This document shows, piece by piece, positions 2,413-23,234 of a stretch of DNA of 28,115 bases. Source of the DNA: a virus; IMG/VR virus record IMGVR_UViG_3300025687_000237, positions 1 to 28,115 of that record. One strand, written 5' to 3'. Below the pieces are notes generated by a model. It saw only the letters and a program-made list of their open reading frames with translations. It was not told the DNA's origin and made no database searches. The position numbers and the translations under genes are program-made. Positions within the stretch are counted from its first letter, which is position 1. Each line of letters begins with the position of its first letter.

Positions 2413-2936
2413 GGGCGTACTATGGTTGTACGCCCAGAAAAATTGGCCCATCTGGGCCAAAGGAGGACACATGTTTTTCAAGAAGACAAAGACCCATGGT
2501 GAAAACCCCGACTTCGTGCAGAGTCACAACCTCCAACCCCGCCTCTATGAGGCGGGGGGAGAGGTGTACCTCACACTGTGGACCCGGAAGGGTCCACAGG
2601 ACTACGCACCGCACATTGCGGTGCGTGTCGCTGGGATCGAGACGGCAGCCGCACGTCGTGCGGCGGAATGGTACCAGAGCGGCCGCCAGTGGCGTAATCT
2701 CTGGCTGGAAGGCCTCGAGGTCTGCGAAGACCTCAAGGCCTTCCTGGAGGCATCCTCCTCCGGAGAGGAGGACGGTGGGGACGACCCCACCGGTGTGGCC
2801 GGCAAAGGCCGGCCGGCGGCGAAGGCCGCCGAGTTTCCCAAGGGTGTCACCCTTGGGGACTTCGAGGAACGCAAGTTTGCGTTCCTCGATGAGGAACGCT
2901 GGTAGCCTGAGAGGGAGGGGACTTAAGTCCCCTCCC
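2413..2936 (+). repeat. Array of about 15 consecutive perfect or near-perfect stem-loops
   Basis: Read directly from the sequence, as left arm / right arm: 2413-2420/2428-2435; 2443-2449/2454-2460; 2537-2545/2549-2557 (9 bp); 2561-2564/2569-2572; 2576-2585/2590-2599 (10 bp, GGAA loop); 2604-2613/2617-2626 (10 bp); 2648-2654/2658-2664; 2684-2687/2691-2694; 2707-2715/2736-2744 continuing into 2717-2723/2728-2734 (16 bp with one mismatch, GCGA loop); 2753-2760/2765-2772; 2773-2780/2785-2792; 2797-2803/2808-2814; 2815-2820/2825-2830; 2837-2845/2849-2857 (9 bp); 2862-2873/2878-2889 (12 bp in the sequence); 2913-2922/2927-2936 (10 bp). Each has its own sequence, so this is not a copied repeat. Loops are 3-5 bases in most, two of them GNRA type. 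Most lie inside the coding sequence 2471-2905, with gaps of 0-21 bases after the first 66. Confidence 0.9.
2471..2905 (+). CDS. Hairpin-packed GC-rich gene, protein of unknown function (144 residues)
   Basis: The start at 2471 is chosen because a perfect AAAGGAGGAC lies at 2459-2468, right before the ATG. The frame also stays open upstream to 2426, but that start has no ribosome site. The protein begins MFFKKTKTHGENPDF, then has a protein-like middle (GGEVYLTLWTRKGPQDYAPH, then AVRVAGIETAAARRAAEWYQ), an acidic Gly/Ser/Asp linker (SSSGEEDGGDDPTG) and a charged tail ending FLDEERW. No family recognised. GC content and codon choice (CTG, GCC, CGC, ACC) differ sharply from the AT-rich neighbours, a sign of foreign origin or of selection on RNA structure. 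Nearly the whole coding sequence folds into successive local stem-loops. Other frames are also open through this block, so coding status rests on the strong ribosome site and the plausible protein sequence. It could instead be a structured RNA with an incidental frame. Confidence 0.6.
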   Translation: MFFKKTKTHGENPDFVQSHNLQPRLYEAGGEVYLTLWTRKGPQDYAPHIAVRVAGIETAAARRAAEWYQSGRQWRNLWLEGLEVCEDLKAFLEASSSGEEDGGDDPTGVAGKGRPAAKAAEFPKGVTLGDFEERKFAFLDEERW

Positions 2937-3422: not shown

Positions 3423-3783
3423 GCCCGGATGGTGGAATTGGTAGACACAGGAGACTTGCCTTACTTGCGCACTTGGGGGGTAAAAATCAAGAACGCAAGG
3501 TCGCGGGTGCGCTCTCTGAAAAGAGGGATGTAGAATGGCGTAAATTCAGGGAAGCCTTAACAGATAACGCTGATGGTAATCCTGAGCGAAGCCTTCTTTT
3601 GGAAAACAAGAAGGAACGTGCAGAGACTAGACACGCCACACCTAAAGCTAAGAAAAGCATAATATCTTAGATAAGGTGAAGGGATAGTCCAGACCACAAA
3701 CTCGAAAGAGGTAGCGAAAGCTATAGTTGGTACGAAAATCTCCTGACCGTAAGGTCGTGCGGGTTCAAGTCCCGCTCCGGGTA
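3423..3783 (+). tRNA. tRNA-Leu (anticodon UAA), interrupted by a group I intron
   Basis: Exon 1 is 3423-3457 and exon 2 is 3735-3783. Joined, they give acceptor GCCCGGA/TCCGGGT (first pair G-U), anticodon stem GGAGA/TCTCC with loop CTTAAAA (anticodon TAA), a long class II variable arm (GACC-GTAA-GGTC) and T stem GCGGG/CCCGC. The 277-base intron separates U34 from A35 of the anticodon, the same site as the well-known cyanobacterial and plastid tRNA-Leu(UAA) intron. Confidence 0.92.
3458..3734 (+). ncRNA. Group I intron in the tRNA-Leu(UAA) anticodon loop
   Basis: The upstream exon ends in U and the intron ends in G (3734), as group I introns require. The conserved core is readable: AATCCTGAGC at 3578-3587 (Q element), GTGCAGAGACTAGAC at 3618-3632 (R element) and AAGGGATAGTCCAG at 3679-3692 (S element). 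GACTA (3625-3629) pairs with TAGTC (3685-3689) as P7. Near the 3' end two small GAAA-capped hairpins (CTC-GAAA-GAG and TAGC-GAAA-GCTA) fit P9-type stems. Core sequence and insertion site resemble the subgroup IC3 introns of cyanobacterial tRNA-Leu. No endonuclease frame lies inside, so it is a minimal intron. Splicing should be self-catalysed with guanosine. Confidence 0.9.
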
Positions 3784-3846: not shown

Positions 3847-4116
3847 ATGGAAGAGATTAGTCAAGACCCCATGTATTTTGTCCTGCACAGCAGGTCACCC
3901 AAGGACACGTCCTTTTTCATCTATCAAGATGGACGAGACGTTGTCTGCATTGGAGAGTGCAGCACTGGCAAAATGGGCGTGACCCACGGTTGGTCACATG
4001 CAGAGGCACGTGAAATAGCCGACAGGCTACTCGTCCAGGAGGGACATGTTATGGCGACTGCCAACAGTCTGGCGCAGGTGTTCAGTCTGATGGAAGCGTT
4101 TGACAAAGTATTCTGA
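3847..4116 (+). CDS. Hypothetical protein inside the tRNA cluster, 89 residues
   Basis: The ATG at 3847 follows AAGGAGGAC (3835-3843), identical over nine bases to the ribosome site of the 2471 gene, so this start is preferred over any upstream frame. The protein (MEEISQDPMYFVLHSRSPKD, FFIYQDGRDVVCIGECSTGK, then a helical C-terminus) is not recognised. It is GC-richer than the phage background. Like the 2471 gene, though less densely, it contains a run of local hairpins, for example 3882-3894, 3901-3914, 3945-3962, 3979-3997 and 4056-4069. Lying between tRNA genes, with this composition, it looks like an acquired gene. Confidence 0.65.
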   Translation: MEEISQDPMYFVLHSRSPKDTSFFIYQDGRDVVCIGECSTGKMGVTHGWSHAEAREIADRLLVQEGHVMATANSLAQVFSLMEAFDKVF

Positions 4117-4849: not shown

Positions 4850-5029
4850 GTGAACGAGAAAGACAGGAGGGTGTTTAAGGCGTGGTACGACACGCTTGGC
4901 TGTTACATCGGAGAAGCTGTGCCACAACGGGAGGCATTCAGGCAGGTATGGCAAGCCTGCGAGCAACAGCGAAAGGAACGCATTGCCGAACTGGAGGCCG
5001 AGATCAAACGCCTAAAGGACGTCGCATGA
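4850..5029 (+). CDS. Small coiled-coil protein, GTG start (59 residues)
   Basis: The frame starts with GTG at 4850, preceded by AAAAAAGG; the nearby ATG at 4843 is in another frame and stops early. The protein (NEKDRRVFKAWYDTLGCYIG, then a charged helix ending IAELEAEIKRLKDVA) resembles small phage proteins with an aromatic N-terminal helix and a C-terminal coiled coil; function unknown. The stop overlaps the next start as ATGA. Codon use (CGC, CTG, GCC) is GC-richer than the phage core. The first 15 bases after the start recur at the start of the next gene. It is one of two genes between tRNA-Arg and the duplicated tRNA-Arg 3' end. Confidence 0.6.
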   Translation: MNEKDRRVFKAWYDTLGCYIGEAVPQREAFRQVWQACEQQRKERIAELEAEIKRLKDVA

Positions 5030-5319
5030 ACGAGAAAGACAAGGCGAAGATGAAACGGTACAATATAACCCTTCAACGCAAAGATGAATACGCCAGTGCT
5101 CGTATTGAAGAGCAAGAAGATGGCGAGTTTGTCAAGTATGAAGATCATCTGGCCGAGATCCAGCACTTGCAGGAGCGTGTCGCTGAAATAGAAGGCAAGT
5201 GGATAAGTGTAAGACTAACCAATGCCACAAAAAGCGTGGAGATCAGGCGGCTTCGGGAGGAGGTTAGATCACTAACATCTATCGCATCAAAAGAACCAGT
5301 CTCTGAGTCGGCGTTTTGA
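5026..5319 (+). CDS. Hypothetical coiled-coil protein, 97 residues
   Basis: The ATG at 5026 overlaps the preceding TGA (ATGA), which decides the start and implies translational coupling. The protein begins MNEKDKAKMKRYNITLQR, nearly repeating the N-terminus of its neighbour (NEKDRR), then has a charged helical body (HLAEIQHLQERVAEIEGKW, EIRRLREEVRSL) expected to form a coiled coil. No enzyme motif is visible. As for the preceding gene, composition and position between tRNA-Arg and a tRNA-Arg fragment suggest arrival by insertion. Confidence 0.6.
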   Translation: MNEKDKAKMKRYNITLQRKDEYASARIEEQEDGEFVKYEDHLAEIQHLQERVAEIEGKWISVRLTNATKSVEIRRLREEVRSLTSIASKEPVSESAF

Positions 5320-8422: not shown

Positions 8423-8859
8423 TATGTATTTTCCTGTAATTCTATTAAGTTGCCAGCAGCTTTATTGTTTGGTAACCATTGTTCTATATAGTAAGACCAA
8501 GCCTCTTCCGGGTCTTCACCACTATTTATTAATCCTAATATCTCTTCTAGCATAAAGTCTGGCATTTGTTTAGCGAAGTATTCTCTTACCCATTCTTTTT
8601 TTAATAACGACCTCATTGTATCTTCTGAGGCAAGAATGACACTAACATTATCGTAATTATTTAGCTTTAATGCAAGCTCTAATTCGCTAGTTACAAGAGA
8701 TATATTATTTGTAAACGGTGCACTCCAACAGTCCACCACAAATATAGAGTTATCGATGTTTTTAACGTCGTCTAATATTTTATATAGTGTTTCCTGTAAC
8801 TCAGGAACTTTAATCATACTAGATTTGGTTTTTAGGCTGTATAATGTTTTAAGGCGCAT
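8422..8859 (-). CDS. Hypothetical protein, 145 residues
   Basis: Soluble protein following the RNA polymerase gene with a TAATG stop/start overlap. The central part (DNSIFVVDCWSAPFTNN, LELALKLNNYDNVSVILASE) alternates strands and helices like a small alpha/beta fold, and the acidic C-terminal half is helical (MPDFMLEEILGLINSGEDPE). Not recognised. Translational coupling to RNA polymerase might mean it accompanies that enzyme, but no sequence evidence proves it. Confidence 0.6.
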   Translation of the reverse strand: MRLKTLYSLKTKSSMIKVPELQETLYKILDDVKNIDNSIFVVDCWSAPFTNNISLVTSELELALKLNNYDNVSVILASEDTMRSLLKKEWVREYFAKQMPDFMLEEILGLINSGEDPEEAWSYYIEQWLPNNKAAGNLIELQENT

Positions 8860-11800
8860 TAATAAAACTTGCCCTTTCCAAACTCAGTACCGTACAGATA
8901 AGAAGGCATCGGATCTGTTCCATGTAAATTACTGGCAGCTCCGAGAGAGGCACCATCTTTTAAAGTATCTCTAATCCTATTAACAGTCAACTTACTTAAC
9001 CAATCTGGATTGTCCATTGCCAGAGTATCTATACTTTTAAAGTATGGCTCGTATGTTATTTGCTCCATTCCACGGGCTGCTCTATCCTTGTTATCTGCCT
9101 TAATCTTAGTAAGAGATACAGCATCTCCACGAAGGTATTCACTATCTTTCGCATCTGTAACTATTGCTTGGTTTGCAATACCTCTGATAACGGTCTCAAA
9201 CGTCTTTTTCCCGAGACCCTCTTTACCAAAAACCCCCTCTAAGTCATTAACCATCTGCAGACGCGCCGCCTGGTAACCCTTATACTTCATTAATTCTTGT
9301 GGCTTTATAGAGCCTGAACTAATCTGGTCACCTTCCAACACTTTGTCTCCGTTCTTAACAAGAATTTTCCTACCAAATGGGACGTGGTGCTTAACACCTG
9401 CTATATACACGTCATTACCACCGATACTTGATTTTTCTATTCTGTGCACTATACCACCGATTGCTGCTAAGACCGCTTTACCTGCAACAATTTCTGGAAC
9501 CTTTAGTACCTGCTCCATTCGAGGGAATCCGGCAACCACATCTTGCTCAGCTGCAGCAGAGCCACCACTATGAAAACTGTTGTGGTTTATATAGGTACCC
9601 GTGATAAACCTTTTGTCAGGGGTAACTCTATCGTAGACCATTTCAATATCTGATTGTATCGGCAGATCAAACATGCGAGCTACCACAACTTCGGAGCACC
9701 CAGGTTGTATGGGCTTCATGCGAAGTTTACCAGGTGTCCACTGTGTGCTTACTTTGATACTTCGTCCGTTTAGCCACGTATTGATACCTTCGCTATCGCG
9801 TAATTTCAAAGAGAAAGGTTGAGAGTTGTTAATATCTCGTCTTTTTTCTAGTCTTAGCGTAGCTGGTATACCAAGTACTGCGCACATAACACGAACTTGA
9901 TCCAAAAGGGCAAAACTATTAGAGTAAATTTTAAATCCTGTACGGTCCTTGCTGCCGTCTGTGTCGATTAGGCCGGAGATAAATTCTGCCAACCATTCTT
10001 TGTCTAGCCTTGCCCAGTCTAATCTTAGCTTTTTGTATTTGGCTTTCGCTTGTATTTGCTCCGAAACTAAGGTTGAGAATTTGGTATTGTGTACCTGATA
10101 GTACTTGTCCTTAATAATGCCGTCAACTTGAGAAGCCAGCTTCTCCTTAATACGCATGTCTATATTTGCTATATTGCATGCCCTAGCCACTGATGGCCTA
10201 TTAGCGTAATATCTAAAGCAACCATCGCCAGCAAAGGCCCCCATCCAATAACCGGGAGCAGCCGCTATGGAGTTGTCTTTTTCCGTGCTATTGTAGATGT
10301 TTATAATGCTTTGCAAAGAAACTTCTAAGGTATCTTTACCGACAACAATGTCTTTAGCCTGCTTCTCTTCACCATTTACCCACATTGGATGATTAGCCTG
10401 CACTATCATACAGCCACCATCTTTTAGATAAATGACTTTTAGAGTATCACTGGGAGCGTGACTTTCCGTAAAACATTGTTCTAGTGTAGTGAAAGATCCT
10501 GACCCATCAATAGTAAAACTATCTACTGTACATTTCATTGTAAGCTGAGTACTGCGCTCTGTGACTGACTGACCCTCTTTAACTCCAATGTTTGTGCCGA
10601 TAGCTACCAGGTTACCATCTTCAGCAATGCCGTAGCACTTCTGACATACGCCATTAATTGCCTCGCACGTCAAAGGAGACCTGACTTCTAATGATTTTAA
10701 CTTTTTACTACGCGCCTTGGTTAGAAGGACACTAGTAATTTCCTCACCTGCCTTACCGACACCTGGTACCGTTTTAGCAAGAAACCTATCCATTAAGTTC
10801 CTTGAGTCCATAACATCTATTTCTACGCCGTCCGTTGTTCGGCAATCCGCCTCTACTACCAGTAAGCTTTTAGTAACCCCCAGCAGAGCTTTGTTGATAG
10901 CACCGGACTGCTCGGTATTAATAGCACGGTCAACCATACCCTTTCTAGCACCATATAGAGACATCCAGTACTCACCCTGATCCAACCCCTCAGCATATGA
11001 TTTAGTAATGGGCATGGGGAGCGCTTTCCCGTGTACGTCAATCTTAACCCCAGGCATACTAATCAACTGCCTGACTGAGTCATGTTTACCCTCCGAACCA
11101 GATTCAAGCATATCATAAAAACCTCTCGCCTTATTTGTCTTTTTAATATAATTATCCTGAGCGGCCTCTATCTGTTTCTGGGCTTTTAACCAGTGAGTTG
11201 CTTTTTGTTCGTTAGACCATTTTGCATTTTCTTCTAACTTGAATTTGTTTACAATGTTATCTCTATAAGACCTATCAATATCAAGGTCGTTAATCGAAAT
11301 GGTGCTGCCGAAGCTGTGACCAAACTGCAGTGCTAAGTCCTTTAGGGCATCAATTGTTTGTGAGAATTCCTTCGAGTGATTAGTTGCTGTATCGTTTAAC
11401 ATCGAGTTCAGCTCTTTTTTGGTAATCTCCTTGTCGTAATTAGCTCTCATAGATTTTGGTAAACTATTAATTACCATTTGCCTGCCAAGACTAGTTTTTT
11501 TACCAGCTATTGTAAGAGTATCGTTTAAACCAATTTTGCCGGCAGCATTTAATTTATTAGCCTCAGCTATATTTTTTACACTATAGTTTGTAGATTTTCT
11601 TTCTCTAGTCAAGTGCCACAGACCTAGCATATAATCTTTAGCGAATGCGCCTGCCGGTACGTTATTTTTGCTGCCAGGTTGCCATACGTTTTTGCTAGGT
11701 AGCATGGTATAGGCTTCTTCTACTGCAGCGTTACCGACAGGTACATGTACTGACATGGTATTGGATAGAATAATACCGTCCACTGACATGAATGTTTCAT

Positions 11801-14800
11801 GCCCCGGCACGGTTAGATCATATCCAGTCTCTGTTTTGCCAGTATTTTCTACTTCTGTTACATAACTCCAACTTACATCTTTGTTATGGATAATATCCAC
11901 CCATCTTTGTTCCAGAACAGCTTCGCCTCTAAGAGCATAGGATCTAAGAGCGCAACTTCTAGTGCAAAAACCTTCTTTTCGGGCTTTAGCTAATGTCAGG
12001 TATAGCGTGCGGTTTTCCTTATGTCCGACCGCTTTCATAAGTATGGTAGCTATCTCTTCTGATATAGGAACCAAATCCGTTTTTTGGTACGACGGAGAGT
12101 TTTCATTTGGCTCAGTGCTTGAAAGAGCTTCCACATTTTTTTCGTGCGCTATATTTAGATCATCCTTTAGTTTAACTAAGTCCACACTGCTAATGGACAG
12201 AATCCAAAAGTCTTTGCCAGCTGTGGTCTTCTTGGAGTAACTAATTCTACTAGTAACTCCAAGAGTACGTAATAGCTGCTGACTTTCTTGAAGAAGTCTC
12301 AGGCTAGCGCTGCTTATGTTGGCTTGTAGCTGCGGTTTAGATTTTCCATGAGTAACACAAATACTTCCGTCGGTGTCTAGTAGCCCAGACAACAGTCCTA
12401 GTTTAAACTCTCTGCTTGCCGAAAACCAGCAAGGAGGCAAATGCTTATTTTGTGCACCCTTACCAATTAGGGGGTAAACCCATCCAGCAAAATCTGTCGA
12501 ATTAACAATCCATTTTTCACTAGCACCATATGAATTCTCGCTGATATTATGGCCTATGTGCGGGCTATCTATAAAGATTTCATCTAGATACTCTATGTAT
12601 CTCCCTGTAACGCATTTTTCGGTACCGGACAAGTTGACGGCCTTAAATTTATTACCAACTTTGTCAACCCAACCATCTCCGGCTAGGGCACCTATTACGT
12701 ATCCCACTTTCTTGTCAGCTGGGATTTTTTCTTTTAGTTTGCCTGTGCCCACAAAGTTAAAAAAGGAAGTTGTGCAGCATTTTTCTATATTTTTAGCATA
12801 CGGCACTAACATGCCGATACTTTCGGATGGACGACGTCTCGCAATATCCAGAGTTTTTGGTAAAATTCCGTACACTGCTCGCTCGTCGTCGTCTGTGATA
12901 ATTTGTTTTTTATTGTGTAGGGTGACCGTCCATACTTCTCTATCCTTATGAACAGACCAACCGCTTACGTCCGCCAACACCAATTTATCCAGAGCTTCAT
13001 CGTAAGCTACTACCTTAGTGTGTGGCAAGGCTTCGTAAAAATCAATATGATCTTTGGTGCCGATCAGGGCGTCTTTGTTGTACGGAAAATCTTCTAGGTT
13101 TACTACATAGAATTCACCTTCGTGCAAATAGGGCAAATCTACCCCAAATCTACTTGACATTTCTTTTGATACCTTCCTAATATTAAACCAGGCTTGATCC
13201 CGGTTACTAATATTATAATACATGTCTAAGTGTTTGTCAAGTATAAATATGAAAACGCTGCCAATTTGCAAGTCACCGTCAAAATCAGCGCCATAGCCCT
13301 TCACGATAAGTGGATTAAGTTTAATTGAGCTTCCTGCAATAGGCTTAGCTATATGTGCCTGTACACTATGTTTATGTAGTGATGGTGCACGGTTCATTAG
13401 TACAGGTCTATTTTGCATAACTACATCAAATGCACGTTTTGATACATCTGAATCTCTACGAACCTCTTCCCGAGCTTCTAATGGGGTATACCCCTGTCGT
13501 ACAAGTTGCTGGACAGCAAACGGTAAAAATATTTTTTTATATAATGTTTCAGGTAGTCCTATTTCATCAAGACCTAGTTGTGGGTCCAGAGTAATCGTAC
13601 TTCTAGCACTAAGGTCTTGGCGCTTGCCCCACAGCTTGCTATGCGCCATTCCGAACTTTGGTGATTTATTTCCTGCGATAGCTACCAGCACGCCTTCTTT
13701 TTTACTTTTATCAGGACGTGTATCTTCGGCAGTACCTACAGTGTATGTTAGTTCTTTGTATAAAGCTGTTTTAGCGGCGGGACCAAAAGCAGACATAAGA
13801 CCTGAGTCCTTGTAGTCTTTGAGGCTTTTGTTTACTAAAGCTAAGTCCCTATAATTATAATTTATTGGGGCCGAGTTTAAGTCGCCACTAGGTAAAGCGA
13901 ATGTTGGTCTATAAGCAGGGGGCATTACTGGGAAATTTTTCACCATGTATACGTCTGCTGGATTTTTATCAAACTTCTTTAAGGCTAATAAATATCTAGT
14001 TTTTTTATTTAGTTTGTTTATATCTGTTGGGGCAGCTTTTGCGAGAGCAGCTTTAGTTGATTTTATTTCGTCATCTATATTTATAGCCCTAAGCGTCTCT
14101 TCAATGCCTTGTGTGCCTGTTTTACCGTTGGGCAATTTAAATGTTTCTTGTAATAGCCCATCGAACTGTGGTTTGGTCACGCCCAGTAAAGACATAATCG
14201 GTTTTTCATACAGCGGGTGTGGCATTTTTTCAGTCAGCTCAATGTGTGACCACTTTTTACCCTTCATACCACCCGTTATTGTTTTATCAAATAAACCACC
14301 TTTAATAGCAGAAAGGTTCTTACCCACCAACATGTGTCCGGCATCTTCTAACTTTCCAGAACTCATAGCTAGGACTTCTTCATCCGTCATGGGTTCTAGC
14401 TCAAGCATATGCCCCTTTTTGTTGACATTAACGCCGACACCCTTTAAATGACCCAACAGCTTTTCAAAAGCAAAGTTAGTTTGTGGAGGCGGTATTGGCC
14501 TACCAGATTGTATGGCTGCCCACACCTCGTCATTTTGTTGTGATTTAAGCCCGGCGAACTCTTTTAAGTTCTCCTTGGCACCATGCGACAGTAAAGCAAA
14601 ACTGGACAGTGGGTCTACTTTCTGACCACCCTCTTTTCCTCTTACAGGCTGTTCGTCTATTGAGTACGTGCCGTAAGACCTGGCTTTAGCTTTATGGTCT
14701 ACGGTATGCATTAATTTCATTATATATTGATTGCCATTAAAAATTGGGTTTGTAAAAGGTTTACCACCCTTACCGTCCAGCAATACGTCATCGGCCTGTA

Positions 14801-17800
14801 GGCCGTTTTCTTTTAATTTGTTTTGAATATCTTTAAGATAATTCTTCCCACTAAAGTTTTCTATATAAAATTTCTTTCCAGTTTTCTTAGCAACCTTACC
14901 AGCCGCTGTTTCCAGTAGCTGGCCCGCGTTCATTCGGCCAGGCACACCGTTAGGGGACAGAATCAGGTCAATACGGTCGCCGTCTTTGGTGTGTGGGGCC
15001 TCGTCGTCAGGGATGATACGAGAAACGATGCTCTTGTTGCCGTGTCGACCCGCTATCTTGTCTCCAACTACCATGGGAGAGCTAGACTTTAGATGTATCT
15101 GTATCTTACCGCCAGATAACTTATTAACATAAACTACTTGTGCACGTTCGTGGCCCCTCCAGTATAGACTTCTGTTAGAGTATGGAACGTAAACACTTTT
15201 ATTCATGCTCTTTAAGATTCTATCGGTATCAGTCATATCCTTTGCTTCAAGATATGCTACTAGTATTCCGTCAGGGTCAACCCAAGAACCTTCTTTAATT
15301 ACTCCATCTTCATCGTATTTTTTGGAATCAGCGTCGGTCATTGCAGTTGGGTAGTTTACCCTAAATTTTTGTAGATTTAGTATCCCATCTTTATGAGTAA
15401 CCAGAGACTCTGTTACAATTTTAGATGAAGTAAACTTATTAGCTAAGCTTTCTGTAATAACGGCAGAGTCTTCATAATTTAAACCCTTCCAGGGCATGTA
15501 GGCCACATTTACGTTGAGCCCTAGCGCTAAACTTCCATCTTTATCGTCCTGGAAGTTGGTATGTGCTAGTATCGGTGATTTAGATGTAACCTCATCTCCA
15601 ACCTTAACCACAGGTTTAGAGTCTAAGAAAGTTTCTCTGTTGAGTGGGAAATTATTAAATAGCCCGACTTTTATTGTTTTATTTGACCCATCAGCTTTTA
15701 GGTGTACGTAATCATCTGTTATTTTGGTCACCTTAGCCTTACTAACTCCAGGCGGCAAAGAAGGGCTTAGGTATCGGGCCACAGCCTTTTCAAAGGTTAT
15801 GTCTTCGGAAACCCCAGTAATTTTAGATTCTACTAGCGGTGATTCCTTGTTGACTAGCGGTAATGCCTGCCCGGTCATCTTAGATCCAAATGAAGCTCTG
15901 ACAGCATCATTACTTTGTATAAATGGGATTAAGTTTGTAGGCCAGGAAAACAACGACCATGAACTTTCCATCCATGCGTCAACTTCCGAAGGTTTGACTT
16001 CTTTTACTGACCCACCAGACATTGCTTTAATTAATGGTTTCTTAGCAACTGGTTTACCATTTTTCATTTCCCACTGATCCGGGAAGGCAATAGTCATGGT
16101 AACTGCCTTTAGTGGTGTTATTTTTTTACGTGACCCATCGGGCATTATAACTTGTTTTTCTATATCAGTTCGACCCTTTTCTACGTCCGCCGGTAATGGC
16201 AGCGTAACACCAACTTTACCAGAATTACCTGTCCAAGAAGGAATATATCCCTCTTCTTTTACATATAATAATCCTCCAGGAACAGTAATTCCATAGACCT
16301 TACCTTTATAGTCTTTTCTGGAATGATGTCCTTTTTTAGGAAGTAATTGAGTATCAGACTTACCAAGAATGCGTACTTCATAAATGTCTAAGTATCTATC
16401 TTCTCTTTCATCTTGGTAGCATTTAATAGAGGGGGCTAATCCTAAACTAATCATAAGGCGCTCAACATCTTCGGCTAAACGCTTACTAGTAGTGGTATAA
16501 GTTTCACATTCCATGCGTTTAGCCTTTAGAGGATTTCGAGGATCTGTTCTGCGACCATCACCTTTCATTAAAGCATCAAGTAGAGCTTCTCTAGCCTCTA
16601 CCGGAGTTTCAAACAAATCTTCTGGAATGTATTTCTCGTGGCAGTAACCGAATTGAGAGAAGTACTCAGCTAGGTACGACGATTTAATGTAAAAACTATG
16701 GCTGGAATAACTATAGTTGAGCCCCATTTTGTTTAAGAGATTCTCTATAATAGCAATATTTTTTTCAATAGTTTGTGATATAGCAGTATGCGTTGGGATT
16801 CCTTTATGATTTTTTCGTAGAGACCCCTCGGATAATACCCACCCGACTAAAGCACACCAATCAGCCATCTTAAATTTATACAAATTCGAAAAAATCTTGT
16901 GTGTTAATGCTGGATTACCATCATACGCAATATGGTCCAGCTTCACCAGCCTAGATTTGCCATACATTTCTTCTGCGGTTTCAATACGGTATCCTAAATT
17001 ACTTCGCATATCGATAGGACGTACCCACATACGATGGTTATGGGTTACCGTTTGCTTAATTTTACGGTTTTCGAATGTGTATAGTTGACCTTCGTAGTCA
17101 AACTCTTGCACCTTGTGAGGGTGCAAAAAGTGTAATTTACCATCTATGTTACAAGCTAATTTGTCCCCTAGAGTAATCTCTACAACCGACTTCCAGCCCT
17201 CGGATGTAAGCGTAAGTGCTTGACTATCAAGGCATTCCGGAGTGTTGATCGGATCCAAGAATCCCATATGGCTAGGGTGCACATCGCGGACACCCATGGT
17301 AATAGCATGGGAGCTCTGAACACCACCAGTACCCATAACAGTAGTCTTACGCCATTCACCAAGAATACTAACCGGGTTAGTTTGTTCTGGAGTAGAACTT
17401 AAGTCCACAGTAGTATAGAATTTTTTTATTGGTGAAGTATATGTTTCAGATGATATAATGTCACGAATTTTTTCTTTACTATCTGTGCGTGAGGACAGCC
17501 CCATAGTTATGCCCTTCTTCTGTTTGTCTAAATACGCACTTAACAGATCAGGAGGAGTTAATAGGTTTTTGAATATGAGGCTGTCTCTTTCATCTTCTTT
17601 TTGCTCACCACGTAAAACACCAAGTATTTTTTTGGATGTAGCAAATAGAGTCTCTGCATTAACTTTGCTATGCTCTTCTCCAAGAGTTATTTTTGTAGTC
17701 ATTGGATTTACTTTTGTAGAGCTTAAGTATTCCTTTAACTGATCAACAGCAGAGTCAAAATCTTTTGGAGGTCTACGGGTTAGTTTTTCGACTAAACCAC

Positions 17801-18437
17801 GTATTTCTTTGTCTTCTCTATTTAGGCCAGATTTCTTATTTTCATCAAAAATATCAGATCCCCAAGCTTTTTTCATATTTTCTTCGGGATATGCAAGAGC
17901 CCTTAAAATTGGATATAATCTAAATTTCCTATTTGCAAGCGTCAGGTAGAATAATTTAGTTTCAGGGTCAAATATCATCTTAAAGTTATAACCCTTTTCA
18001 AGGTCAAACCAAGACTCTAGTTCACCGTTCTCTTTTGTTCTAGTATAGATCCCAGACTTTAATCTTAGCTGATTAATTGTTTGATATTCTGATCCATCTA
18101 CAATCATACTATACCTATTAGTAAGGGTAGGTATATTAGCTAGCCTAACATTTTTTGATTCATCGATTACTTTACCAGTATTATTATTAATCAAACGCAG
18201 ATGACCAAAGACAGGTAAAGACCAAGTTTTACCTTTCAGTTTTACTTCCTTTTGGGCCGGAGCATCTGTCTCGTTAACAGAGCCAGGGTCTGCTGACATT
18301 TCTACCAGCTCTAATGTATTTTTCTTACCAACTACTGGAAATTGATTAGAGATAAAATCTTTTATGTTGTTTAAGACTTCCCTATTCTGCTCGTAGGGTT
18401 CAAGTAGATTAATATTATCAGTTTTTTGTTTTGACAT
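8859..18437 (-). CDS. Fused beta-beta' multisubunit-type RNA polymerase with three inteins (3192 residues; about 2033 after splicing)
   Basis: One frame encodes both large RNA polymerase subunits. The beta part shows HPSHMGFLDPINTPE (about 387-401), joined after splicing to SGKVGVTLPLP, and the C-terminal beta motif GDKIAGRHGNKS (about 1124-1135). The beta' part shows RPVLMNRAPSLHKHSVQAH (about 1675), the metal-binding ADFDGD (1717-1722) joined after splicing to TMSVHVP, and the trigger-loop region TQLTMK joined to SFHSGG. Removing the inteins (402-738, 1723-2226, 2636-2953) leaves about 2033 residues, short compared with separate bacterial beta plus beta'. The enzyme would transcribe phage genes; no sigma or alpha homolog is seen in this window. 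The ATG at 18437 has AGGA 8 bases upstream and a strong promoter at 18489-18517. Four small genes follow with overlaps or a 9-base gap. Confidence 0.95.
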   Translation of the reverse strand: MSKQKTDNINLLEPYEQNREVLNNIKDFISNQFPVVGKKNTLELVEMSADPGSVNETDAPAQKEVKLKGKTWSLPVFGHLRLINNNTGKVIDESKNVRLANIPTLTNRYSMIVDGSEYQTINQLRLKSGIYTRTKENGELESWFDLEKGYNFKMIFDPETKLFYLTLANRKFRLYPILRALAYPEENMKKAWGSDIFDENKKSGLNREDKEIRGLVEKLTRRPPKDFDSAVDQLKEYLSSTKVNPMTTKITLGEEHSKVNAETLFATSKKILGVLRGEQKEDERDSLIFKNLLTPPDLLSAYLDKQKKGITMGLSSRTDSKEKIRDIISSETYTSPIKKFYTTVDLSSTPEQTNPVSILGEWRKTTVMGTGGVQSSHAITMGVRDVHPSHMGFLDPINTPECLDSQALTLTSEGWKSVVEITLGDKLACNIDGKLHFLHPHKVQEFDYEGQLYTFENRKIKQTVTHNHRMWVRPIDMRSNLGYRIETAEEMYGKSRLVKLDHIAYDGNPALTHKIFSNLYKFKMADWCALVGWVLSEGSLRKNHKGIPTHTAISQTIEKNIAIIENLLNKMGLNYSYSSHSFYIKSSYLAEYFSQFGYCHEKYIPEDLFETPVEAREALLDALMKGDGRRTDPRNPLKAKRMECETYTTTSKRLAEDVERLMISLGLAPSIKCYQDEREDRYLDIYEVRILGKSDTQLLPKKGHHSRKDYKGKVYGITVPGGLLYVKEEGYIPSWTGNSGKVGVTLPLPADVEKGRTDIEKQVIMPDGSRKKITPLKAVTMTIAFPDQWEMKNGKPVAKKPLIKAMSGGSVKEVKPSEVDAWMESSWSLFSWPTNLIPFIQSNDAVRASFGSKMTGQALPLVNKESPLVESKITGVSEDITFEKAVARYLSPSLPPGVSKAKVTKITDDYVHLKADGSNKTIKVGLFNNFPLNRETFLDSKPVVKVGDEVTSKSPILAHTNFQDDKDGSLALGLNVNVAYMPWKGLNYEDSAVITESLANKFTSSKIVTESLVTHKDGILNLQKFRVNYPTAMTDADSKKYDEDGVIKEGSWVDPDGILVAYLEAKDMTDTDRILKSMNKSVYVPYSNRSLYWRGHERAQVVYVNKLSGGKIQIHLKSSSPMVVGDKIAGRHGNKSIVSRIIPDDEAPHTKDGDRIDLILSPNGVPGRMNAGQLLETAAGKVAKKTGKKFYIENFSGKNYLKDIQNKLKENGLQADDVLLDGKGGKPFTNPIFNGNQYIMKLMHTVDHKAKARSYGTYSIDEQPVRGKEGGQKVDPLSSFALLSHGAKENLKEFAGLKSQQNDEVWAAIQSGRPIPPPQTNFAFEKLLGHLKGVGVNVNKKGHMLELEPMTDEEVLAMSSGKLEDAGHMLVGKNLSAIKGGLFDKTITGGMKGKKWSHIELTEKMPHPLYEKPIMSLLGVTKPQFDGLLQETFKLPNGKTGTQGIEETLRAINIDDEIKSTKAALAKAAPTDINKLNKKTRYLLALKKFDKNPADVYMVKNFPVMPPAYRPTFALPSGDLNSAPINYNYRDLALVNKSLKDYKDSGLMSAFGPAAKTALYKELTYTVGTAEDTRPDKSKKEGVLVAIAGNKSPKFGMAHSKLWGKRQDLSARSTITLDPQLGLDEIGLPETLYKKIFLPFAVQQLVRQGYTPLEAREEVRRDSDVSKRAFDVVMQNRPVLMNRAPSLHKHSVQAHIAKPIAGSSIKLNPLIVKGYGADFDGDLQIGSVFIFILDKHLDMYYNISNRDQAWFNIRKVSKEMSSRFGVDLPYLHEGEFYVVNLEDFPYNKDALIGTKDHIDFYEALPHTKVVAYDEALDKLVLADVSGWSVHKDREVWTVTLHNKKQIITDDDERAVYGILPKTLDIARRRPSESIGMLVPYAKNIEKCCTTSFFNFVGTGKLKEKIPADKKVGYVIGALAGDGWVDKVGNKFKAVNLSGTEKCVTGRYIEYLDEIFIDSPHIGHNISENSYGASEKWIVNSTDFAGWVYPLIGKGAQNKHLPPCWFSASREFKLGLLSGLLDTDGSICVTHGKSKPQLQANISSASLRLLQESQQLLRTLGVTSRISYSKKTTAGKDFWILSISSVDLVKLKDDLNIAHEKNVEALSSTEPNENSPSYQKTDLVPISEEIATILMKAVGHKENRTLYLTLAKARKEGFCTRSCALRSYALRGEAVLEQRWVDIIHNKDVSWSYVTEVENTGKTETGYDLTVPGHETFMSVDGIILSNTMSVHVPVGNAAVEEAYTMLPSKNVWQPGSKNNVPAGAFAKDYMLGLWHLTRERKSTNYSVKNIAEANKLNAAGKIGLNDTLTIAGKKTSLGRQMVINSLPKSMRANYDKEITKKELNSMLNDTATNHSKEFSQTIDALKDLALQFGHSFGSTISINDLDIDRSYRDNIVNKFKLEENAKWSNEQKATHWLKAQKQIEAAQDNYIKKTNKARGFYDMLESGSEGKHDSVRQLISMPGVKIDVHGKALPMPITKSYAEGLDQGEYWMSLYGARKGMVDRAINTEQSGAINKALLGVTKSLLVVEADCRTTDGVEIDVMDSRNLMDRFLAKTVPGVGKAGEEITSVLLTKARSKKLKSLEVRSPLTCEAINGVCQKCYGIAEDGNLVAIGTNIGVKEGQSVTERSTQLTMKCTVDSFTIDGSGSFTTLEQCFTESHAPSDTLKVIYLKDGGCMIVQANHPMWVNGEEKQAKDIVVGKDTLEVSLQSIINIYNSTEKDNSIAAAPGYWMGAFAGDGCFRYYANRPSVARACNIANIDMRIKEKLASQVDGIIKDKYYQVHNTKFSTLVSEQIQAKAKYKKLRLDWARLDKEWLAEFISGLIDTDGSKDRTGFKIYSNSFALLDQVRVMCAVLGIPATLRLEKRRDINNSQPFSLKLRDSEGINTWLNGRSIKVSTQWTPGKLRMKPIQPGCSEVVVARMFDLPIQSDIEMVYDRVTPDKRFITGTYINHNSFHSGGSAAAEQDVVAGFPRMEQVLKVPEIVAGKAVLAAIGGIVHRIEKSSIGGNDVYIAGVKHHVPFGRKILVKNGDKVLEGDQISSGSIKPQELMKYKGYQAARLQMVNDLEGVFGKEGLGKKTFETVIRGIANQAIVTDAKDSEYLRGDAVSLTKIKADNKDRAARGMEQITYEPYFKSIDTLAMDNPDWLSKLTVNRIRDTLKDGASLGAASNLHGTDPMPSYLYGTEFGKGKFY
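9579..10532 (-). other. Intein 3 (residues 2636-2953), LAGLIDADG type
   Basis: The 318-residue insert lies between TQLTMK and SFHSGG, in the beta' trigger-loop region. It starts CTVDSFTIDGSG, has block B MIVQANHPMWV, two LAGLIDADG helices (WMGAFAGDGCF, FISGLIDTDGS) and ends GTYINHN with +1 Ser. These are the canonical class 1 residues, so splicing should proceed normally. Confidence 0.94.
11760..13271 (-). other. Intein 2 (residues 1723-2226) with non-canonical splice residues, LAGLIDADG type
   Basis: The 504-residue insert splits ADFDGD from TMSVHVP in the beta' catalytic loop. Block A aligns (LQIGSVFIF against the usual CxxGDTxV), but residue 1 is Leu, encoded TTG, instead of Cys or Ser. 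Block B reads ITDDDERAV, with Asp where the conserved His is expected. The end is GIILSN, with Ser for the penultimate His; the terminal Asn and a +1 Thr remain. Block F reads GYDLTVPGHETF, so it has no class 3 cysteine. Two LAGLIDADG helices are present (VIGALAGDGWV, LLSGLLDTDGS). Confidence 0.9.
16224..17234 (-). other. Intein 1 (RNA polymerase residues 402-738), LAGLIDADG type
   Basis: The 337-residue insert lies between INTPE and SGKVG of the beta motif. It starts with Cys (CLDSQALTLT), has the block B TxxH motif (QTVTHNHRMWV), two LAGLIDADG helices (LVGWVLSEGSL and LLDALMKGDGR) and ends IPSWTGN with +1 Ser. The penultimate residue is Gly rather than the usual His, a variant I recall from other phage inteins. 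Splicing and homing functions both look intact. Confidence 0.93.
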
Positions 18438-21951: not shown

Positions 21952-22315
21952 TTGTTTTGTTAGTAGGTTAAGTTTTTTCTCTAAAAAAAACATATGATTC
22001 GATTCGAGTTGTAGAAACCTCTTACCTCCCGGAATCATGCGTACGACTACGGACCACGAAGCCAAAACTCTTTGTCGGATAAAAATCAGTCACGAATCTT
22101 CCGAGAAACCCCAAAGAAAGGCCTCAGATCGTAATACCGACAAAGAGTCGACTCGTGGTCCTCCGGCGACGAATGTCTCCGGGAAAAACAAACGCGGAAA
22201 CCCACGAGCAGCCTGGCGGGCACCGCAGTGCACCAGCTCCATGGTGTACGCAAACCCGGGATCCCGTTCGTCAAGCCATAAGATACAGAATTCCGCAGCA
22301 AGTACTAACAAACAA
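21952..22315 (+). ncRNA. Retron ncRNA locus (msr-msd) with a1/a2 inverted repeats
   Basis: The 399-base gap before the reverse transcriptase holds a retron-like layout. TTGTTTTGTTAGTA at 21952-21965 (a1) pairs with TACTAACAAACAA at 22303-22315 (a2) with one bulge. Between them a first hairpin ATGATTC/GAATCAT (21994-22000/22032-22038) could lie in msr. A long hairpin has arms 22051-22059/22153-22161 (9 bp) and 22067-22078/22137-22148 (12 bp) around an internal loop. Another element has GACGAA/TTCGTC (22168-22173/22267-22272) and an inner hairpin GTGCACCA/TGGTGTAC (22228-22235/22242-22249). The exact branching G and msd ends cannot be set by eye. At about 360 bases it is longer than most retron ncRNAs. 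Confidence 0.75.
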
Positions 22316-22328
22316 CTAATTAGAGGGA

Positions 22329-23234
22329 ATGATGCAAGACATATACTCCTTAATAGGCACCACAAAAGAAGAAGTAGAAAATATAGTTAATAGCATACAT
22401 ACTTACTATGTTAGTTATAATATTATAAAAAACAACGGTAAAGGCAAAAGGACCATAGACGCACCTCAGGGGAGGCTGAAAGAATTACAGGAAAGCCTGC
22501 TCAAGGAGGTTTTATATAAGTTTAAATGCAACGACATAGCTCATGGATTTATAAAGAATAGAAGCCCCAAAACAAATGCAGAACAACATCTAGGCGCTTC
22601 GTGTGTAATAAAAATCGATCTTAAAGATTTCTTTAGTAGTGTGAAAAGAGAACATGTACACGGCACCTTGGGACTATGTCTAAATACCAGGGAAACCAAA
22701 ATATGTGAAAGCGTATCTGATGAGGATTTAAAACTACTTTCCGCGCTATTAACACGGAAGGGAAGGGTGCCACAAGGGGCCCCAACGAGCCCGGCCATAA
22801 CTAACCTATACGCCCTCGGATTGGATAAAAGGCTTAAATCTCTTTGTGACCGTTACAAGCTGACACTAACCAGGTATGCTGATGACATTACCATATCGGC
22901 GAAATACGACTTAAATCCCACACAAAAAAAGAACATAATTACCAACGTAGCTAGGTTATGCTCTATGTATGGGTTACAGGTGAACGCGGCTAAAATTAAA
23001 CTGAGGTACAAGCATAGCCGTATGTCGGTTACCGGCGTCGTGGTGAATGAAAAAACTAACATGGCAAAGCCGAAATATCGAATATTGAGGGCAAAAGTAC
23101 ATAACGCCTATGTCGGAAAAACACAGTTAGACGCCAAAGCATTACAAGAACTTAGGGGTGAATTAGAATGGTTAAGGAGCCTAAATCCAGAGAAGGCAGC
23201 GCCACTAATAAAAAAGTTTGGTTTGATAAAATAA
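22329..23234 (+). CDS. Retron reverse transcriptase
   Basis: The 301-residue protein carries the diagnostic retron marks: NAEQH (83-87), fitting the NAxxH motif, DLKDFF (97-102), VPQGAPTSP (147-155), the catalytic YADD (183-186) and VTG (234-236) followed by VVVNEKTN. There is no maturase or endonuclease domain as in group II intron enzymes, and the length is normal for retron RTs. It reverse-transcribes part of the upstream ncRNA into multicopy single-stranded DNA linked to RNA, usually as part of an anti-phage defence. The a2 repeat ends 13 bases before the start. The ribosome site AGAGGG suits the second ATG (22332) better than the first. The following gene begins inside its last codons. 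Confidence 0.93.
   Translation: MMQDIYSLIGTTKEEVENIVNSIHTYYVSYNIIKNNGKGKRTIDAPQGRLKELQESLLKEVLYKFKCNDIAHGFIKNRSPKTNAEQHLGASCVIKIDLKDFFSSVKREHVHGTLGLCLNTRETKICESVSDEDLKLLSALLTRKGRVPQGAPTSPAITNLYALGLDKRLKSLCDRYKLTLTRYADDITISAKYDLNPTQKKNIITNVARLCSMYGLQVNAAKIKLRYKHSRMSVTGVVVNEKTNMAKPKYRILRAKVHNAYVGKTQLDAKALQELRGELEWLRSLNPEKAAPLIKKFGLIK

Follow-up and report, generated by a model that had tools for sequence, protein, structure and literature searches.

Coding palindromes have been described in protein genes of the mitochondrial DNA of Nematomorpha, and non-functional repeat conversion was proposed as their origin (PMC6649704). The repeats are AT-rich, measure at least 15 bp (mean 43 bp, up to 142 bp) and have an average spacer of 37 bp (PMC6649704). 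A further hallmark of this type is that the arms remain perfect from one species to another even as their positions move. A second precedent is provided by template-switch mutations, which create RNA stems by generating perfect reverse-complement arms in one step (PMC8794818), although they are not described there as an array that fills a whole gene. A third is found in the single-stranded RNA (ssRNA) phages (Leviviricetes), whose coding RNA is laid out as successive local stem-loops.

The gene that we consider here lies in a 28,115-nt stretch of DNA (the window), a fragment of roughly 41% GC from a large uncultivated myovirus in IMG/VR. A preliminary description, made from the sequence alone, reported about 15 hairpins standing back to back, most of them within the frame 2471-2905. 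Defining a perfect hairpin as a Watson-Crick stem of at least 7 bp with a loop of 3-8 nt, we found 15 perfect hairpin centres in 2413-2936, 12 of them within that open reading frame (ORF), in agreement with that account; nearly all of the loops measure 3-4 nt (Table 1). The 12 compare with a mean of 1.0 and a maximum of 4 in 500 codon-preserving shuffles, and perfect hairpins take up 54% of the bases of the ORF (cover 0.545). The longest stems are found at 2862-2889 (12-13 bp), at 2576-2599 and 2604-2626 (10 bp each), and at 2707-2744 (16 of 17 pairs), whereas the longest run without a perfect hairpin, 2461-2529, contains the ribosome site, the start codon and the first 20 codons. Two loops, GGAA and GCGA, are of the GNRA type noted earlier; the remaining loops are not. 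The statement that no two hairpins share a sequence was nearly right: the hairpins at 2862-2889 and 2879-2899 have an arm in common, in the order A-A'-A (2864-2872, 2879-2887 and 2891-2899, with GAGGAACGC present twice), and 2800-2811 and 2817-2828 are identical at 11 of 12 positions. The accompanying view that the array is not a repeat expansion is supported.

Table 1. Features of the hairpin unit, in window coordinates.
Feature	Position	Strand	Description
5' leader hairpin 1	2413..2435	+	stem 8 bp, loop 7 nt
5' leader hairpin 2	2443..2460	+	stem 7-8 bp
Shine-Dalgarno AGGAGG	2461..2466	+	4 nt upstream of ATG; partly paired in fold model
ORF, 144-aa orphan protein	2471..2905	+	16.2 kDa, pI 5.3, net charge -5
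Hairpin	2530..2564	+	perfect core 2537-2557, 9 bp, loop TAT
Hairpin	2576..2599	+	10 bp, loop GGAA (GNRA-type)
Hairpin	2604..2626	+	10 bp, loop CAT
Hairpin	2648..2664	+	7 bp, loop GTC; 8 bp with loop closed further
Imperfect hairpin	2674..2704	+	10 pairs, two blocks
Hairpin	2707..2744	+	16 of 17 positions paired, loop GCGA (GNRA-type), one C-A mismatch
Hairpin	2753..2772	+	8 bp, loop CGGA
Hairpin	2773..2792	+	8 bp, loop ACGA; abuts hairpin 2753..2772
Hairpin	2797..2814	+	7 bp, loop AAAG
Hairpin	2814..2831	+	7 bp, loop GAAG; abuts hairpin 2797..2814
Hairpin	2831..2862	+	core 2837-2857, 9 bp, loop GTC; 5 further pairs beyond one mismatch
Hairpin	2862..2889	+	12-13 bp
Competing hairpin	2879..2899	+	9 bp; arm in common with 2862-2889 (arm order A, A', A)
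Terminator-like hairpin	2913..2936	+	10-12 bp, then ATTCTTGTTT; end of unit

The hairpin gene and the Nematomorpha genes alike carry perfect inverted repeats in frame, with both arms translated, above the level of codon shuffles; in both there is no excess of imperfect repeats, and hairpins overlap or compete. They differ in that the phage stems are of 7-13 bp (one of 16 of 17 pairs), with loops of 3-4 nt and GC-rich sequence, and fall short of the long repeats of the Nematomorpha type (at least 15 bp, mean 43 bp). Moreover, this is one orphan gene in a DNA phage, whereas the Nematomorpha repeats are spread over conserved mitochondrial genes. The closest described parallel of the hairpin gene is the coding palindromes of Nematomorpha mitochondrial DNA. 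The preliminary description knew of no described family of this kind, and we found nothing like it in the collections searched, nor a phage gene of the coding-hairpin kind described in the literature searched; its claim has to be qualified by the Nematomorpha palindromes (PMC6649704) and by ssRNA-phage genes that have comparable z values in another style. Coding palindromes are already known elsewhere, and what is new is a phage gene dense in perfect hairpins, represented by one gene on one contig.

As a whole, the 524-nt stretch folded at -317.2 kcal/mol, compared with -215.3 (SD 7.2) in dinucleotide shuffles (z = -14.1). For ORF 2471-2905 alone, 300 codon-preserving shuffles gave z = -8.9, and repeat folds with a 150-nt pairing span and 25 shuffles gave z = -9.2 and -10.3; the prospect that synonymous versions might fold equally well, raised at the outset as grounds for abandoning the idea, did not materialise. 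By comparison, 24 GC-rich genes of DNA phages (Caulobacter phage CcrBL9 and Streptomyces phage Microdon) had a mean z of -0.9 (SD 1.26, minimum -4.3), and the next strongest 200-nt fold in the rest of the window had a z of about -6. Perfect-hairpin cover reaches 0.652 in a 400-nt stretch at the hairpin unit. No other 400-nt stretch exceeded 0.245 when we scanned about 2 Mb of retrieved phage sequence, the bulk of it from relatives of the phage that carries the gene or from carriers of relatives of its neighbour genes. Hairpin clusters in four loci (L106, L025, L024 and L108) were intermediate, but sparse and not comparable.

The only yardstick tested with an overlapping synonymous-shuffle z was that of the ssRNA-phage genes: segments of MS2, PP7, phiCb5 and AP205 ranged from -1.4 to -9.3, with values of about -4 to -9 in most. 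This overlap, and the presence of a retron-type reverse transcriptase in the same window, would suit the idea that a piece of an ssRNA-phage genome, for example a coat-like gene with packaging hairpins, was captured as DNA. The build of the stems argues otherwise. Those of the ssRNA phages are short, interrupted and richer in G-U, with a weighted helix length of about 5 bp, close to that of their own shuffles, as against 7.3 bp in the hairpin ORF, and with a perfect-hairpin cover of 0-0.11 as against 0.545. In addition, the encoded protein is acidic (pI 5.3), and neither Pfam nor PHROG searches linked it to coat, maturation, replicase or lysis proteins. We find such a capture scarcely credible.

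We asked how the order of amino acids bears on the hairpins. Randomising the order of the codons gives an expectation of 0.19 perfect hairpins; keeping the real amino-acid order but shuffling synonymous codons gives 1.0; the actual number is 12. The rise from 0.19 to 1.0 means that the amino-acid order is itself hairpin-friendly, and the difference in hairpin-permissiveness between the real and random orders of the same codons has a p of about 1e-43. The hairpins and the protein sequence have shaped each other. In seven of the 12 coding stems, second codon positions lie opposite one another and first positions lie opposite third positions, a register called 'phase 2' in the Nematomorpha paper (PMC6649704). 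At one third for each register, the binomial chance of at least seven in 12 is about 0.07, and this preference is suggestive only.

Because three overlapping frames are open at the hairpin unit, and about 11% of frames remain stop-free when the hairpin modules are permuted, the openness of a frame is weak evidence of coding here. Frame 2471-2905 carries a codon signature, with G at position 1 in 63 of 144 codons, A at position 2 in 48 of 144, and a GC3 of 0.74; neither its position-by-base chi2 of 36.3 nor its G-first/A-second score was matched in any of 5000 module permutations. The signature indicates that the frame is genuinely coding, and it is from this signature that we infer translation itself. 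Both the signature and the ribosome site belong to 2471-2905; the other frames (150 aa on the plus strand and 172 aa on the minus strand) are most simply a by-product of GC-richness. The earlier suggestion that arms and codons are maintained together is borne out by the coding frame and by the excess of folding over synonymous shuffles. The ribosome site, described beforehand as strong, is real in that AGGAGG stands 4 nt before the ATG, but it is predicted to be mostly paired (mean unpaired probability 0.28-0.29). What is predicted for 2461-2529 is weaker pairing, so that the ribosome-site stretch cannot be termed open.

No homologue of the 144-aa protein was found in PHROGs, Pfam, PADLOC, INPHARED phages, PLSDB plasmids or PDB sequences, in IMG/VR and GTDB genomes (exact-peptide scans), or in the whole records behind 84 related phage loci. 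Pfam yielded nothing up to E = 1, and PHROGs nothing better than E = 0.33. Relatives sought via the neighbouring genes were distant phages only, and we likewise detected no relative of the hairpin DNA in the collections searched. Degenerate scans for the motifs QWRNLW and LWTRKGP returned chance matches only, the best of which (L129 and L130) come from unrelated ORFs that carry the motif DLGxxxxxWRNLW, tail-fibre-like by eye. AlphaFold, run on the single sequence, gave a mean pLDDT of 44.

The GC content changes abruptly at the hairpin unit, to 63% (GC3 74%), and the GC3 of 0.74 in the gene compares with 0.27-0.58 in 13 other genes of the window. Since the unpaired third positions of the gene are still 62% GC, this composition looks foreign and not merely a by-product of the stems. 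The dense array of hairpins extends over leader, ORF and terminator and is confined to this one apparent transcription unit. After the stop codon, the terminator-like hairpin and a T-rich tail (2913-2946) are a consensus match only, and a promoter scan yielded one weak 9/12 consensus match at 2351-2378, with 0.5 expected by chance. From its composition and layout, the unit looks like a cassette of foreign, moron-like character, in which one gene comes with its own ribosome site and terminator-like hairpin. With phage morons it shares a single gene, a deviant GC content, a terminator of its own and a place among accessory genes; we found no moron built of coding hairpins described in the literature searched. 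The abrupt GC change, on a single contig and with no second copy, could also be attributed to an assembly or chimera artefact. Random artefacts would not yield a coding frame, Shine-Dalgarno sequence, stop codon and terminator placed in order across the hairpins, however, and we attach next to no weight to this explanation. The portal protein of the phage is 70% identical to that of a relative (L078/G001), and about 21-33% identical to those of Vibrio phages such as D181, Salmonella phage Arash and Bacillus phage G. No empty site was seen in this nearest relative contig, which lacks the hairpin gene but ends so near its tRNA-Val that the locus is cut.

Rfam covariance models run on the hairpin stretch gave no family at the gathering threshold. 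Matches to Guanidine-II and PrrB_RsmZ were below gathering scores and are explained by generic hairpins. The kinship proposed earlier with ROOL and GOLLD, which are likewise structured RNAs near tRNA genes, finds no footing in these searches, and the hairpin unit differs from them in being a coding gene. The weak PrrB_RsmZ match (22.1 bits at 2815-2941; gathering score 44) is in keeping with a CsrA/RsmA sponge of the CsrB/RsmZ type, a hairpin array with GGA loops, as are the GGA in two loops and the 4 accessible GGA, compared with 1.25 (SD 1.26) in synonymous shuffles. Those two are among about 15 loops, which have no common motif; most GGA triplets are buried in stems; and the unit, unlike CsrB/RsmZ, encodes a protein. 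A sponge was already very unlikely on these grounds.

G-U pairs account for 5 of the 182 local pairs in the hairpin unit, with no coding-strand excess, and the two strands fold near-equally (-317 and -310). Such nearly pure Watson-Crick, strand-symmetric stems, far less interrupted than those of ssRNA-phage genes selected at the RNA level, fit an account in which the hairpins are DNA-level palindromes without an RNA function, their arms arising and homogenising by template switching or hairpin conversion in the phage or in a donor genome. The 3-4 nt loops, the competing A-A'-A arms and the shaping of amino-acid order by hairpins fit it as well, and published work offers both a precedent and a mechanism for it (PMC6649704, PMC8794818). 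The effects of a mutational process should be visible across the genome, however, and such arrays are missing from the remainder of the window and from about 2 Mb of retrieved phage DNA; the hairpins instead match the extent of a single transcription unit, from its leader to its terminator. We regard this account as possible, if somewhat unlikely.

The reading that we tentatively favour is that of a foreign, moron-like cassette with a dual-coded gene, whose stems were made by copying and are kept at the RNA level for resistance to endonucleases. The cassette would encode the 144-aa orphan protein in a coding sequence that doubles as a hairpin ladder (about 13 local, independent stem-loops) flanked by the two leader hairpins and the terminator hairpin. 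The transcript would fold during synthesis into short, nearly G-U-free hairpins and would expose little single-stranded RNA to endonucleases; the ribosome would enter at AGGAGG, which lies in the one long segment that perfect hairpins leave free, and would then unwind the hairpins singly. The gene may thereby yield an unusually long-lived mRNA. As for origin, replication template switching (fold-back copying) would have produced the perfect arms, with changes that the protein could bear, and selection on the RNA would then have retained them. The A-A'-A order at 2864-2899 is what serial fold-back copying would leave, and this order, the scarcity of G-U and the strand-equal folding point to template switching as the origin of the stems (PMC8794818). 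That the hairpins fill exactly one transcription unit and are absent elsewhere favours their being kept at the RNA level over a purely mutational account. Several observations count against the favoured reading: selection on the RNA of one strand should leave more G-U than A-C, and no such excess is seen; the strand-equal folding, the partly paired ribosome site and the weak promoter match point the same way. Because no homologue was found, continued selection on the structure is something that we infer.

The preliminary description offered a nuclease-resistant mRNA, a double-stranded-RNA decoy and DNA cruciform sites among its candidate roles. It would be unlikely, but is worth stating, that DNA phages have a class of gene whose protein-coding sequence evolves as an almost unbroken ladder of perfect hairpins because the folded transcript has its own job. 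That job would be to escape host RNases or RNA-sensing defence, or to interfere with them, and the protein would yield to the demands of the structure. A narrower proposal is a decoy or inhibitor resembling double-stranded RNA, in which the ladder would titrate a double-strand-specific protein of the host or its defences, such as RNase III or a dsRNA sensor. Dense perfect stems in a short transcript, adjoining a tRNA cluster where phages keep accessory genes, accord with a decoy. RNase III prefers roughly two turns of duplex, however, and most of the stems, at 7-13 bp, are below that preference; nor would a pure decoy need the coding frame verified here. We consider a decoy improbable.

Coding constraint normally breaks perfect stems, even in ssRNA phages, which need folded genomes. 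A phage gene in which perfect hairpins span over half of the codons would be a natural setting in which to ask to what extent RNA or DNA structure can determine a protein, whether template switching builds genes, and whether coding mRNA itself serves phages as a shield or decoy.

Just downstream of the hairpin gene, tRNA genes are clustered together with small accessory ORFs. Two of these ORFs (3847-4116 and 5026-5319) have raised GC3 (0.58 and 0.49), with hairpins that are not unusual, and their composition suggests that GC-richer sources contribute genes to the tRNA region. Of the ten phage tRNAs (3262-6300), most have anticodons that read A-ending codons (TAT, TAC, TGT, TGG, TTT, TAG, TGC, TCT and TCC), as expected if the host GC exceeds that of the phage. 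A group I intron (3452-3714; Rfam RF00028, 65 bits) apparently interrupts a tRNA-Leu(UAA) gene (3423-3783). On visual inspection, the halves of the gene, GCCCGGA...GACTT and AAAATC...TCCGGGT, rejoin in the anticodon, which we take to be the position of the cyanobacterial and plastid tRNA-Leu(UAA) intron.

Upstream of the hairpin gene, a PD-(D/E)XK endonuclease (PF11645) is encoded at 944-1357, with a weak PADLOC match to a homing endonuclease. On the minus strand, 8859-18437 encodes a fused RNA polymerase beta-beta' of 3192 aa, 69% identical to its relative in L078/G001; it has three intein-like insertions (approximately residues 401-737, 1722-2225 and 2635-2953) that are absent from the 2044-aa G001 protein. 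A retron-like unit at 21960-23234 includes the retron-type reverse transcriptase (best PADLOC match RT_XIII, 1e-70). Upstream of the reverse transcriptase is a structured stretch (z = -4.4) with no Rfam match, and the enzyme has a 48% identical counterpart at the corresponding place in G001.
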